From assembly GCF_002270055.1 (NCBI RefSeq), contig NZ_NIBG01000001.1, positions 346,937 through 410,936 of the forward strand: a stretch of DNA of 64,000 nucleotides. Direction: 5' to 3'. This stretch comes from Anaeromicrobium sediminis. GTDB taxonomy: Bacteria; Bacillota; Clostridia; Peptostreptococcales; Thermotaleaceae. Each line of letters opens with the position of its first letter. Positions within the stretch are counted from its first letter, which is position 1. The notes under the pieces are model-generated. The model worked only from the letters and a program-made list of their open reading frames with translations. It was not told the origin of the DNA and made no database searches. Below, piece by piece: positions 3,696-56,502 of the stretch. The position numbers were made by a program, and so were the translations under genes.

Positions 3696-4934
3696 TTATA
3701 CGTTCATTCCTGCCAAATAACCTGTGGAATATGCTATTTGTAAGTTATATCCTCCCGTTAAAGCCTCCACATCTATAACTTCACCTGCAAAATAAAGACC
3801 TGAAGTCTTTTTAGATTCCATAGTAGATGGATCTATTTCTTTCACATTAATTCCTCCAGAAGTTATTATGGCTTCCTTTATAGGTCTAGTTTTTGTAACG
3901 GTCATAGGTAATTTTGTTATATTATCTAATAAATTTTTTCTTTCTTCCTTAGTTATCTGATTTACTGTTTTCTCTTCTTCTATATTGGATAATTTAATTA
4001 TTACAGGTATTAATTTTGCAGGTAATAAGTCCTTTAATGCATTTTTAAATTGTTTATTAGAATATTTTTCAAAATCCCTTTGAATTCTCTTATCTAATTT
4101 ATCTCTATCAAGGGCTGGCTTTAAATTAATAGTAACTGCCATATTTCCCTTTTCTAGATATTCATTTATATAATTGCTAGCGCTTAAAACTAATGGGCCT
4201 GATATACCAAAATGTGTAAATAGCATTTCTCCAAAATTAGAATATACTACTTTATTTTTATGATGGAATTTTATTTCCACATTTCTAAGAGAAAGTCCTT
4301 GAAGCTCCTTAATCCATCCTTCTTTCGTTTCAAGGGGTATAAGAGCAGCCTTTAATTTTACTACATTGTGTCCAACCTTCTTAGCAAAATTATAACCATC
4401 GCCTGTAGCTCCTGTAGTAGGATAGGATAATCCGCCTGTGGCTATAATTATTTTTTCACAATTAATTTTTTTATTATCACTTAATATTACTCCTGTTACT
4501 TTATTGTCCTTAACAATAATGTCTTTTACTTTAGTGTCCAGTCTCACATCCACTTTGTATTTTGACATATTTTTTTCTAATGCCTTTATTACATCACTAG
4601 ACTTATCAGAAACGGGAAATACTCTAAAACCCCTTTCTACTTTTGTCTTTACACCATGTTCATGCATCAAGTTTATTATGTCATCATTTGTGTAACTATA
4701 AAAAGCACTGTATAAAAAGTTCTTGTTTGTAGTAACATTATTTATTAATTCTTCTACATCTTGGGCATTAGTAATGTTACATCTGCCTTTTCCTGTAATA
4801 TATATTTTCTTTCCCAATTTTTCATTTTGCTCTAATAATACGGTCTCATTTCCTTTACTTGCAGAAGTGGCAGCTGCAATCATTCCCGCTGCGCCTCCTC
4901 CTATAACAATTACTTTACTCAATTTTATCTTCAT
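3696..4934 (-). CDS. HI0933/BaiN-family flavoprotein
   Basis: 412-residue NAD(P)/FAD-dependent oxidoreductase. The dinucleotide-binding motif GGGAAGM is near residues 12-18, followed by the family signature GKKIYITGKGRCN. A second signature near the C-terminus (ALTGGYNLQIAYSTGYLAG) completes the FAD site. Members of this family include BaiN, linked to bile-acid reduction, and proteins of unknown substrate; the substrate here cannot be inferred. The upstream phosphatase gene stops 3 bp before the ATG. The ATG sits almost on top of the AAAGG ribosome site, so the TTG at codon 5 (position 4922) is an alternative start. Confidence 0.88.
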   Translation of the reverse strand: MKIKLSKVIVIGGGAAGMIAAATSASKGNETVLLEQNEKLGKKIYITGKGRCNITNAQDVEELINNVTTNKNFLYSAFYSYTNDDIINLMHEHGVKTKVERGFRVFPVSDKSSDVIKALEKNMSKYKVDVRLDTKVKDIIVKDNKVTGVILSDNKKINCEKIIIATGGLSYPTTGATGDGYNFAKKVGHNVVKLKAALIPLETKEGWIKELQGLSLRNVEIKFHHKNKVVYSNFGEMLFTHFGISGPLVLSASNYINEYLEKGNMAVTINLKPALDRDKLDKRIQRDFEKYSNKQFKNALKDLLPAKLIPVIIKLSNIEEEKTVNQITKEERKNLLDNITKLPMTVTKTRPIKEAIITSGGINVKEIDPSTMESKKTSGLYFAGEVIDVEALTGGYNLQIAYSTGYLAGMNV

Positions 4935-4937
4935 CCT

Positions 4938-5552
4938 TTACTCTATATTTTCTAAGTGAGCAGTATCATTTAATGTTTTAATAACTGGACCATAATCCCT
5001 ATACTCTATTATATTTATAGATGTATTATTTTGAGTTATTTTATAAAAGTCTGATAATGGCATTTCCATAATGCCTAAAATTATGCTTTTAATTGATATG
5101 CCATGAGATACTATTAATATAGTTTTCCCTTTATTTTCTTTAATAATATAATTAATTATTTCTAATGTCCTATTTTGGACATCTACTAACTTCTCAGCTT
5201 CAGGAATTAGGGCTTTATGTGGATTATTTCTCCATATAATAAAATCATCTTCGTATTTTTCTTTTATTTCACTAGTTGTTAAACCTTCCCATTTTCCAAA
5301 GCTCATCTCTCTTAGTCTATTGTCTTTTATAACCTCTTGATCTAGTTCTTTTGCCACCATTTCTGCCGTATGAAAGGCTCTATCTAAATCACTACTGTAT
5401 ATTTTATCAATCTTATAATGCTTTAGCCTTTTTGCTAATAATTTAGCTTGATTTAGTCCATTCTTCGTCAAACCTATATTTTTACTACCTTGAGCTCTAT
5501 GTTCTAAGTTCCATGTAGTTTCACCATGTCTTACGATAATTAGTTTCGTCAT
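4938..5552 (-). CDS. Histidine phosphatase (phosphoglycerate-mutase-like)
   Basis: 204-residue member of the histidine phosphatase superfamily. The catalytic RHGET motif is at residues 8-12, with the supporting arginine and glutamate in YSSDLDRAFHTA and LREMSFGKWEG, and the second catalytic histidine in VSHG near residue 150. These features match the CobC/PhoE/GpmB-like branch of small phosphatases rather than glycolytic mutase. The natural substrate is not evident. An AGGAGG site precedes the ATG. It heads the unit with the flavoprotein and cmk, and its upstream region has a TATAAT box near 5579-5584. Confidence 0.85.
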   Translation of the reverse strand: MTKLIIVRHGETTWNLEHRAQGSKNIGLTKNGLNQAKLLAKRLKHYKIDKIYSSDLDRAFHTAEMVAKELDQEVIKDNRLREMSFGKWEGLTTSEIKEKYEDDFIIWRNNPHKALIPEAEKLVDVQNRTLEIINYIIKENKGKTILIVSHGISIKSIILGIMEMPLSDFYKITQNNTSINIIEYRDYGPVIKTLNDTAHLENIE

Positions 5553-5696
5553 GCCATTCCTCCTAACACTAAGAACAATTATACATTAAATTATATAATC
5601 ATAAAATATCCTTTTGATTATTTTATCCTTTCAAATAATAATAATTTAATATGGGGTATAAAATTAGTGGCAAAATTATTATTACTTGAAAAAATT

Positions 5697-5726
5697 TAAA
5701 AAAAGCCACAGTTTTCACTGTAGCTT
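5697..5726 (-). terminator. Intrinsic terminator after the RpiR gene
   Basis: Stem AAGCTACAGT / ACTGTGGCTT with a four-base loop, followed by a T-run on the minus strand. It lies just past the stop of the RpiR gene and ends the kor operon. Confidence 0.88.
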
Positions 5727-5733
5727 CTTTTAT

Positions 5734-6612
5734 CTATAGACTAGATCCATCTTTATTATCGTATACATTTTGCTTTTTCCATATATTTTCAAGCTTGTTA
5801 AAGGTAGTTGAGATTTTATCTCTTTCTTTCATACCTAGTGCAACTATTAGTGCATTGATTAAGCTAAGTGGCGCTACTAAAGAATCTACAAAAGATGCCA
5901 TGTTACTTCTTGCTGTCAAAGTATAATCTGCTATTTCCGTTATAGGAGACACTTTACTGTCTGTAAGACCTACAATAGTAGCTCCTTGTTCTTTAGTGTA
6001 ATTTAAGGCATTCAATGTAATCTTAGAATATCTAGGAAAACTAATTCCAATTACTAAGTCTCCCTCTTTAACTCTTAATATTTGCTCAAATACGTCACTT
6101 ACACCTAATCTTACTACTCGTACATTATCTAGTACCAGATTTAAGTAAAAACCTAAATACTCTGCTAAAGTGCTCGAACTCCTAAGACCTACTATATAAA
6201 CTCTGTCTGCTTCTAAAATTTTATCAATTACGCTTTGGAATAATTTGTCATCTAATTCGTCAATCATATGACGTATATTATCCATATCAGCCTTTAGAAC
6301 TTTCTTTAATACTGTACCACCATCTTTGTAGTCTTTTGACATTTCAAGTCTCTGTACAGTAGTTAATTTTGTCTTAACAAGTTCTTGGAGTTCTTTTTGC
6401 AGTTGGGGGTACCCATCATATCCTAATGCATTAGCAAATCTTACTACTGTAGATTCACTTACTCCTACCTTGTTTCCTAGTTTTGAAGCCGTCATAAAAG
6501 CTGCCTTATCATATTCGTTTATAATGTATTGCGCAATAAGTTTTTGCCCCTTACTTAATCGTGAAAATTTCTTTTGTATAATCCTAGTTAAATCTACCTT
6601 TTCTTCTTTCAT
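5734..6612 (-). CDS. RpiR-family transcription regulator
   Basis: 292-residue regulator with an N-terminal helix-turn-helix of the RpiR/HTH_6 type (residues 1-80; SESTVVRFANALGYDGYP is characteristic) and a C-terminal SIS sugar-phosphate isomerase-like domain (about residues 110-260, with VGLRSSSTLAEYLG and VIGISFPRYS). SIS domains usually sense phosphosugars. It is the last gene of the kor operon, 19 bp after the gamma subunit, so it probably senses central-carbon status and controls this or another metabolic operon. The ligand is unknown. Confidence 0.9.
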   Translation of the reverse strand: MKEEKVDLTRIIQKKFSRLSKGQKLIAQYIINEYDKAAFMTASKLGNKVGVSESTVVRFANALGYDGYPQLQKELQELVKTKLTTVQRLEMSKDYKDGGTVLKKVLKADMDNIRHMIDELDDKLFQSVIDKILEADRVYIVGLRSSSTLAEYLGFYLNLVLDNVRVVRLGVSDVFEQILRVKEGDLVIGISFPRYSKITLNALNYTKEQGATIVGLTDSKVSPITEIADYTLTARSNMASFVDSLVAPLSLINALIVALGMKERDKISTTFNKLENIWKKQNVYDNKDGSSL

Positions 6613-6631
6613 GTTTTATATACCTTTCTTC

Positions 6632-7171
6632 TTAAAGATTTTCTACTAGCTTATATCCTTCGTATAAAGCTTTTTTGTTTAGCTCTTCAGTTCCCTTTGG
6701 AACTCTGCTTAACACTGCTTTTTCTAAAGATTCTTTTTCTACTAATCCTAATTCTCCGTTTATAACACCTAATGCAACGATGTTAGCCACTACAGACTTT
6801 CCAACTTCATTAGCTGCTGTATCAAGTATTGGTAATTGTATAACCTTACCACACTTTATATTATCTCCTAATTTTACCTTTGTGTCTACTATTAAAGTAG
6901 TATTCTCATTTACTTCTTTACCATATTTGTCACACGCTATTTGAGTTAAGCATAAAAGCATATCAACAGTTTGAACTTTAGGGAAATCGATTTCGTCATT
7001 ACTAATGATTACTTCTGCTTTACTAGCTCCCCCACGAGCCTCTGGACCATATGATTGAGATTGAATAGCATTTTTGCCTTCTAATATTCCAGCTTCTGCT
7101 AGTATTATTCCACCAAGGATTAGACCTTGACCACCTGAACCTGTTAATCTTAATTCTTTTTTATTAGACAT
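6632..7171 (-). CDS. korC: 2-oxoacid:ferredoxin oxidoreductase, gamma subunit
   Basis: 179-residue gamma subunit of a four-subunit 2-oxoglutarate- or related 2-oxoacid:ferredoxin oxidoreductase. LTGSGGQGLILGG near the N-terminus and SYGPEARGGASKAEVI are family signatures. The ATG at 7169-7171 is chosen because it follows AAAGGAGAG at correct spacing; an in-frame ATG nine codons upstream lies inside korB and has no site. The enzyme oxidatively decarboxylates a 2-oxoacid to the acyl-CoA and reduces ferredoxin, or runs in reverse. All four subunits are present in the order D-A-B-C. Confidence 0.92.
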   Translation of the reverse strand: MSNKKELRLTGSGGQGLILGGIILAEAGILEGKNAIQSQSYGPEARGGASKAEVIISNDEIDFPKVQTVDMLLCLTQIACDKYGKEVNENTTLIVDTKVKLGDNIKCGKVIQLPILDTAANEVGKSVVANIVALGVINGELGLVEKESLEKAVLSRVPKGTEELNKKALYEGYKLVENL

Positions 7172-7172
7172 A

Positions 7173-7994
7173 TTATCTCTCCTTTGATAATCTATCAATG
7201 ATTTTTTGATATTCTTCAGTGTATTCTGGTGAAGTAGTGCTTACGAATTCACCTATTAAGAACTTACCTTCTAATTGTTCTTCAGTTAACTTTTCTGCTC
7301 TCTTTACATCAACAGCGTGATCTTTTTGCCACTTAAGCATGTTAACAGAGTCACCTTTTTTGTTCTTTCTTCCGTAGTAAGTTGGGCAAGAACTGATTCC
7401 TTCAATTAATGAGAATCCTTTGTTTTCAATACCCTTTTGGATGTACTTAATAAGTGGGTTAACATGGTATGCAGTTGAACGTGCAACGTAAGTTGCTCCT
7501 GCTGCCGCACCTAAGTTACAGATATCAAAAGGTCTATCAATATTTCCATATGGTGCTGTAGTTCCTAAGTCTCCTGTTGGAGTTGCTGGAGAATATTGAC
7601 CACCTGTCATTCCATAAATATTGTTGTTAAATACGATAGTTGTAATATCTATGTTTCTTCTTGCTGCATGAATTAAGTGGTTACCACCGATTGCAGATGC
7701 ATCTCCATCTCCTGTAATTACGATTACAGTAAGCTCTGGTCTTGCAAGTTTAACTCCCGTAGCAAAAGCTAATGCTCTACCGTGAGTAGTGTGTAATGTA
7801 TTAAAGTCCATGTATCCTGGTGCTCTTGAAGAACATCCGATTCCTGATACTACACAAACCTTATCTTTATCTAAACCTAAATTTTGGATCGCTTGTGCTA
7901 TACCACGCATTAAGATTCCGTGGCCACAACCTGGACACCAAATATGAGGTAATTTATTCATTCTAAAAGTATCTTGTATTAATTGACTAGACAT
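7173..7994 (-). CDS. korB: 2-oxoacid:ferredoxin oxidoreductase, beta (TPP) subunit
   Basis: 273-residue thiamine-diphosphate-binding beta subunit. The N-terminal CPGCGHG motif supplies cluster ligands, GIGCSSRAPGY follows, and the TPP/Mg motif GDGDASAIGGNH continues to NNNIYGMTGGQYSPATP. This last segment is typical of KorB (2-oxoglutarate type) rather than pyruvate oxidoreductases, though substrate assignment from sequence alone is not firm. Start and the stop of korA overlap as TAATG, so translation is coupled. Confidence 0.93.
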   Translation of the reverse strand: MSSQLIQDTFRMNKLPHIWCPGCGHGILMRGIAQAIQNLGLDKDKVCVVSGIGCSSRAPGYMDFNTLHTTHGRALAFATGVKLARPELTVIVITGDGDASAIGGNHLIHAARRNIDITTIVFNNNIYGMTGGQYSPATPTGDLGTTAPYGNIDRPFDICNLGAAAGATYVARSTAYHVNPLIKYIQKGIENKGFSLIEGISSCPTYYGRKNKKGDSVNMLKWQKDHAVDVKRAEKLTEEQLEGKFLIGEFVSTTSPEYTEEYQKIIDRLSKER

Positions 7995-44344: not shown

Positions 44345-44517
44345 AAAAAAGGCATACTTCGTATGCTTGGCTAGGAAACCCTATGGTTTCCTTCGACGAT
44401 TGCTCCCGTAATCTGATCACTTTCCTTTGAAGCGGGCAGGGGATGTTCCCCCACGTTCCCTTATTTTTTGCTTATCCACAGTTTTGGAAATTTATAATTT
44501 CCTAGTAAGCAAAAAAA
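44345..44517 (-). repeat. Structured repeat, copy A (unknown RNA or mobile element)
   Basis: 173-bp element between pgsA and cinA, about 65-70% like the copy at 56307-56481. On the minus strand it starts in the T-tract of the pgsA terminator, with TTTTTTTGCTTA pairing with TAAGCAAAAAA, an inner GGAAAT/ATTTCC hairpin, a GGGGAACATCCCC hairpin, a GGAAACC/GGTTTCC hairpin and finally GCATAC/GTATGC followed by TTTTTT. The last is a second terminator. It has no coding frame. A perfect DnaA-like TTATCCACA occurs in copy A only. Confidence 0.8.
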
Positions 44518-44535
44518 GCAGCATAGCTGCTTTTT
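44511..44535 (-). terminator. Intrinsic terminator of pgsA
   Basis: AGCAGC / GCTGCT stem extended by A:T pairs, three-base loop, followed by seven T on the minus strand. The T-run is also the start of repeat copy A. Confidence 0.9.
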
Positions 44536-56306: not shown

Positions 56307-56481
56307 AAAAAAAGGCATACTCCGTATGCTTCCATATGGAACTCTATGGTTCCCTTAGACGCAACTACAGTTGTTGATCACCCTCCTCCAAAGAAGTAGG
56401 GGATGTTCCCCCACACCCCCTTATTTTTTTACTTATCTATAGTTTTGAGAATGTTATAATTTCCTAGTAAGTAAAAAAAAA
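56307..56481 (-). repeat. Structured repeat, copy B (unknown RNA or mobile element)
   Basis: 175-bp element related to copy A at 44345-44517, between pnp and ylxY. Stems are kept with compensatory changes, for example GCTTA/TAAGC in A becomes ACTTA/TAAGT in B and GGAAACC/GGTTTCC becomes GGAAC/GTTCC. On the minus strand it begins in the T-tract of the pnp terminator and ends with GCATAC/GTATGC plus TTTTTTT. No coding frame. Confidence 0.8.
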
Positions 56482-56502
56482 CATAAACCTTATGGTTTAT
56501 GT
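56473..56502 (-). terminator. Intrinsic terminator of pnp
   Basis: ACATAAACC / GGTTTATGT stem with a four-base loop and a nine-T run on the minus strand. The T-run forms the start of repeat copy B. Confidence 0.92.

Follow-up and report, generated by a model that had tools for sequence, protein, structure and literature searches.

A repeat unit of Anaeromicrobium sediminis that inserts behind intrinsic terminators, probably a non-autonomous IS91-like element

The repeat found behind the pgsA gene of Anaeromicrobium sediminis (copy A) is a member of a family of units that occupy unrelated sites of the genome. The unit consists of a left-end (LE) hairpin, a core that belongs to the Rfam family RF02937 and a right-end (RE) hairpin followed by a T-tract. 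It inserts at intrinsic terminators, and orthologous sites with and without it are found in related genomes. The LE motif, the target and the form of the RE are common to the units and to IS91-like elements of relatives. The unit is probably an IS91-like rolling-circle element of the non-autonomous kind, with an intrinsic terminator as its target and an imitation of one as its right end. The term window designates below the whole stretch of 64,000 nucleotides that was analysed.

Architecture of the unit and its copies

The functional sense of copy A is the minus strand, on which the host T-tract, the LE hairpin, the Clostridiales-2 core, the RE hairpin and TTTTTT follow in this order (Table 1). 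The upstream gene pgsA codes for a CDP-OH_P_transf domain and the next gene is cinA. The LE hairpin can also be read as TTTTTTTGCTTACTAGGAAATTATAAATTTCC...GTGGATAAGCAAAAAA after the T-tract (minus strand), and the A-tract beside it base-pairs with the T-tract of the host. No ORF exists within the 173-nt unit and no promoter-like site was found inside it. The unit folds with a stability above that of shuffled sequences both as RNA (z -3.0) and as single-stranded DNA (z -3.7). The original prediction had described a non-coding, stem-rich element of about 173 bp with its start in the T-tract of pgsA's terminator and another terminator-like hairpin at its end, and all of this is confirmed. Its kinship with copy B also holds, as the two are 78% identical. 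Copy B is positioned behind the pnp terminator.

Table 1. Position of copies A and B, of their parts and of the host terminators in the window
Feature	Position	Strand	Evidence
Copy A, whole unit, from host T-tract to right-end T-tract	44345..44517	minus	blastn and RF02937
pgsA intrinsic terminator, insertion target of copy A	44513..44535	minus	terminator scan; upstream hairpin -9.9 kcal/mol
T-tract of the pgsA host terminator	44511-44517	minus	
LE hairpin GCTTACTAGGAAATTATAAATTTCC...GTGGATAAGCAAAAAA of copy A	44464..44510	minus	fold; motif also opens IS91-like elements
Core of copy A, RF02937 Clostridiales-2 match	44386..44468	minus	47.9 bits, E 1e-10 (cut-off 58.6)
RE hairpin GCATACGAAGTATGC and T-tract CTTTTTT of copy A, second intrinsic terminator	44345..44366	minus	terminator scan
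Copy B, whole unit	56308..56479	minus	blastn, 78% identity to copy A
Core of copy B, RF02937 match	56349-56428		53.1 bits (below cut-off 58.6)
pnp host terminator hairpin, target of copy B	56481..56502	minus	hairpin -13.5 kcal/mol directly before T-tract; pnp domains

An Rfam scan of the window at gathering score returned nothing, and RF02937 surfaced only in a permissive scan. Copies A and B score below the gathering cut-off of this family (58.6 bits) and are diverged members, although copy A matches the model over its full length (positions 1-82 of 82) and with the consensus hairpins. Copy A and RF02937 have in common the 82-nt core, its two hairpins and the AAGGAGGGUGCUCAG...CGUCGAAGG strings, which hardly vary. 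A search with the model identified 97 copies in the window's genome, 71 of which reach the cut-off, and blastn of the query against the same genome gave 41 matches. The repeat family belongs to RF02937 in spite of the divergence of copies A and B. RF02937, the Clostridiales-2 RNA, is entered in Rfam as an sRNA with a model that spans 82 of the 173 nt, while the LE, the RE hairpin, the terminator target and the mobility all lie outside this model. The claim of novelty made for copy A depended on a third copy, of which the genome has ample supply, and on the outcome of an Rfam search, which limits the claim for 82 of the 173 nt and does so, for copy A, through a match below gathering score. The core is thus the known part, as an sRNA family in Rfam. 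The new part is the complete unit, a non-autonomous mobile element that targets terminators, ends in one and most likely descends from IS91-like elements.

The aligned genome copies have a common start and a common end, each in a T-tract, the flanks being unique and the sequence outside the unit different in each case. The LE motif is present in 84 of 94 copies of the window's genome and the RE T-tract is retained in 93 of 94, with a median pairwise identity of 81%. RF02937 was detected in 28 of 391 drawn genomes of the same class; carriers include Oceanirhabdus seepicola, Lutispora and Ruminiclostridium cellobioparum. The unit had no matches in plasmids, phages or IMG/VR. In Clostridiales GWB2_37_7 (L218, L221, L225) the core occurs as a variant with ~90 extra bases in the first hairpin and in many near-identical copies. 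Two further records (L118, L127) are named Calditrichales bacterium MX18-03, a deposited name that looks wrong: by GTDB their genome (G211) falls in the class of the window's genome, and a spread of the family across phyla was discarded.

Insertion behind intrinsic terminators

A host terminator hairpin (below -6 kcal/mol and ending at the T-tract) directly precedes the unit in 86 of 95 copies, compared with 9% of shuffled controls and 13% of the remaining T6+ runs (219) of the window. The host terminators differ from one another, and other genomes display an equal layout with different hairpin sequences. The median distance to the upstream stop codon on the same strand is 33 nt, and none of 91 copies tested is inside a long ORF. 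Some copies of the congeneric genomes G010 and G002 are preceded by a T-rich stretch only; the RE of these units ends in GTTC. The fusion of copy A to a terminator, as originally predicted, is real, but it is not special to pgsA: the terminator is the target rule of the whole family. The fold of the RE gave weak z-scores (median -0.7) because they were calculated over a segment of fixed length, which is unsuited to some subfamilies. In genome G015 an element with this LE is found inside the terminator of a T-box leader (RF00230; L113, 16330-16660), where its own terminator may lock the T-box-regulated gene off.

Empty sites were looked for, as had been suggested, by locating the gene ends that adjoin units in both G010 and G002, and orthologous sites with the terminator but without the unit were found. 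At L245/L257 and at L250/L253 the orthologous terminator is present in both genomes and the unit in one, showing that the terminator predates the unit. At L244/L249 the gap between matching flanks measures 171 nt in one genome and 13 nt in the other. At L248/L255 the unit is also in one genome only, with a less conserved spacer, and at L247/L256 a full unit in one genome corresponds to an LE hairpin alone in the other.

The window's genome (L189) and Oceanirhabdus (L215) also have core-less units, in which the LE is joined directly to the RE. Tandem units occur in Clostridiales GWB2_37_7 (L145, L222) and in genome G028 with the LE against the T-tract of the preceding RE, which indicates that the RE of a unit serves as a target too. 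LE hairpins of ~44 bp are found alone behind a T-tract in L256 near 1839 (G010) and in L220 (GWB2_37_7); they are perhaps independent minimal units or remnants. Units of ~200-250 bp with the same LE, another middle and an RE hairpin GCATA...TGCGAATTTTTTT (L113 ~600-807, L111 ~4640-4831) form a second non-autonomous family without a match in Rfam.

Likeness of the ends to those of IS91-like elements

A search with the query's LE segment gave 10 places in genome G028, and at 9 of these an IS91-like transposase copy, or what remains of one, was verified to start. The transposase has the domains Zn_Tnp_IS91 and Y2_Tnp, and its sequence shows an HIH motif as well as YIGRY. The G028 elements are nearly identical, start with T-tract-TTCTATAGGAAATTATAA and end with CCCCGTCAGGGGA-TTTTTTTAT, and most of them are behind host terminators. 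The nearest transposases (at least 40% identity, or 100% for G028) come from six genomes. All six have an LE-like start of the element, which is directly behind a terminator in five; excluding G028, the five are G224, G421, G404, G191 and G081, with four of the starts directly behind terminators. Right ends of the hairpin-plus-T form are present downstream of L260-L263.

The likeness of the LE is short and a loose search for its motif over all transposases was not discriminating (10 of 28, against 21% in shuffles), so that the case for IS91 rests on this nearest clade. The LE motif and the terminator form of the RE are common to units and IS91-like elements, while the sequences of the RE hairpins differ. 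G191 carries both the RNA and the transposase; their ends have a similar form there without being identical, and no genome carrying RF02937 was found to have a transposase copy whose ends are identical to those of its units. The four copies of the distant G329 group have the LE GTATAGGAATTT and lack a terminator, and their RE ends in GTTC. Taken together, the units resemble dependent relatives of IS91-like elements, in a branch that may have shifted its target to terminators.

Small details of the transposase elements were also recorded. Downstream of the G028 transposase (L178, L285) is a small second ORF, which contains two CxxC pairs, and similar small proteins follow the transposase in L261-L263. 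One IS91-like copy of G028, at L112 ~4900-7515 (minus), is truncated by another insertion with long ORFs that resemble a transposase of some other kind. Genome G012 has three near-identical elements with an IS91-type transposase (L163, L169, L172); they have a recombinase-like neighbour and different ends and were set aside as another type.

In the mechanism that would account for the preferred reading, an IS91-like HUH (Y2) transposase supplied in trans would act on single-stranded ends, recognising the LE hairpin and the RE hairpin with its T-tract. The LE would then be joined to the T-tract of a target that resembles the element's own RE, namely an intrinsic terminator, to give host hairpin-TTTTTT-[LE-core-RE hairpin]-TTTTTT. 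The upstream gene should stay terminated and no gene would be cut. Because the units sit behind terminators and bring their own stop signal, their insertion probably does the host next to no harm.

Y2_Tnp, Zn_Tnp_IS91 and G028-type proteins are absent from the window's genome, which consists of 55 contigs and is recorded as 100% complete. As no IS91-like transposase was detected there, the mobilising enzyme is one that we infer. The copies of this genome are either relics or moved by an enzyme that escaped the search; their 81% identity fits the former. Among the 391 genomes of the class, 28 have the RNA, 21 the transposase and 4 both (G167, G191, G311 and G379; ~1.5 expected). None of 232 loci has a core adjoining an IS91-like transposase, and no other gene recurs tellingly beside units in these loci.

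Stem covariation, alternative origins and known systems

Covariation was analysed in 40 non-redundant copies from many genomes. Changes on both sides were found for 13 of 20 stem pairs. The cells of double-sided change numbered 86, whereas shuffles gave 25.5 +/- 4.8 and slid controls no more than 24. The paired changes reported initially from two copies are genuine and their strength shows that the structure of the unit is under selection, in agreement with the proposed selection on RNA or single-strand structure. Selection on RNA of this sense alone should give G.T cells above A.C cells. Between genomes 23 G.T cells were counted versus 19 A.C cells, and within the genome 68 versus 49, a surplus that comes from one poorly aligned stem. 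Without a clear excess of G.T, the constraint is equally likely to act on single-stranded DNA or on RNA. HUH enzymes act on hairpins in single-stranded DNA, and DNA structure is therefore a sufficient cause of the covariation. The ends of ISCR elements are structured (PMC13393415).

The core strings are near-invariant across genera, and the core is more conserved than passive filler should be; it may act as a transcript or as a DNA structure to which the transposase binds. There is a small chance that the core is an RNA or single-stranded DNA cofactor which helps the HUH transposase to find targets made of a hairpin plus a T-tract. RF02937 would then be a transposition RNA, not a host sRNA, and for the transposon family a terminator would be at once the end that it carries and the address that it seeks.

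A mobile mini-element moved by another enzyme, such as a Y1 transposase or a reverse transcriptase, is unlikely but has arguments in its favour: the IS91-like transposase is absent from the host genome, its co-occurrence with the RNA is weak, and group IIC introns, which are reverse-transcriptase elements, likewise insert behind terminators (Robart 2007, via PMC7161350, PMC3240598). The LE would in that case be shared through old ancestry or convergence. Yet the LE motif, its position at terminators and the terminator-like RE recur on IS91-like elements of several genomes, and no recurrent neighbour gene could serve as the alternative mover.

The strong covariation, the near-invariant strings of the core and the terminator nature of the RE would suit a host small RNA or 3' UTR element that was duplicated and kept as useful, for instance as a back-up terminator or a sponge. 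Such an origin has a slim chance in view of the empty orthologous sites, whose terminators are older than the units, of the core-less LE-RE units and of the different internal sequences enclosed by the same ends. The units moreover have no neighbour genes in common and no internal promoter-like site, and G.T does not exceed A.C in their stems. It is very improbable that the repeat, mobile by origin, is now fixed and domesticated as a second terminator. In its favour, the genome has no remaining transposase and its copies are old, with stems and RE T-tract kept despite the median identity given above, but the pairing of the stems could date from the time of mobility. The non-autonomous IS91-like element remains the preferred reading.

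Both candidates offered in the original prediction contain some truth, the clostridial non-coding RNA for the core, which is RF02937, and the miniature mobile element on account of the empty sites. The proposed affiliation to the IS200/IS605 or IStron kind seems less fitting, as the ends resemble those of IS91-like elements, whose HUH transposase is of the Y2 type. Like IS91/ISCR (HUH Y2, oriIS/terIS), the unit has the LE motif, two different structured ends and no sign of inverted terminal repeats. The relatives carrying its ends encode Zn_Tnp_IS91 and Y2_Tnp, whereas the 173-nt unit encodes no transposase. The IS91/ISCR target is a tetranucleotide of the GTTC/GAAC type, in contrast to the intrinsic terminator of the unit; the right end in the window's genome is a T-tract, and a GTTC end is limited to the G010/G002 subfamily and the distant G329 elements.

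REP/RAYT and IS200/IS605 mini-elements resemble the unit in having many short, hairpin-bearing intergenic copies that depend on an HUH enzyme, but they have other ends and a Y1 enzyme, while the autonomous relatives of the unit carry Y2 and its target is the terminator. REP/RAYT systems (PMC2817692) are like the unit in copy number and enzyme superfamily and unlike it in ends and target. IStrons are also clostridial, mobile and structured. They contain a group I intron and are spliced, whereas the unit is intergenic and needs no splicing; the Rfam scan gave no group I intron match of the unit, and elements with its ends carry Y2_Tnp. Group IIC introns of the B.h.I1 type share with the unit the location directly behind intrinsic terminators and the avoidance of genes. 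As retroelements, however, they possess a ribozyme and a reverse transcriptase, both lacking in the unit, which had no group II intron match in the Rfam scans. The avoidance of genes and a common target were proposed as an advantage for group IIC introns (Robart 2007, via PMC3240598 and PMC7161350).

In a literature search that covered mostly journals free of subscription, the family was found unnamed and terminators were not reported as targets of HUH or IS91-like enzymes. A curated sRNA of unassigned role can now be re-read as the inside of a mobile element. Covariation alone is no proof of a functional RNA, because the single-stranded DNA ends of transposons can covary too. The unit is the DNA-transposon counterpart, under the preferred reading, of group IIC introns: it inserts behind terminators and carries a terminator at its right end. 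If the transposase recognises terminator hairpins, this would be a testable HUH targeting rule that steers DNA to gene-safe sites.
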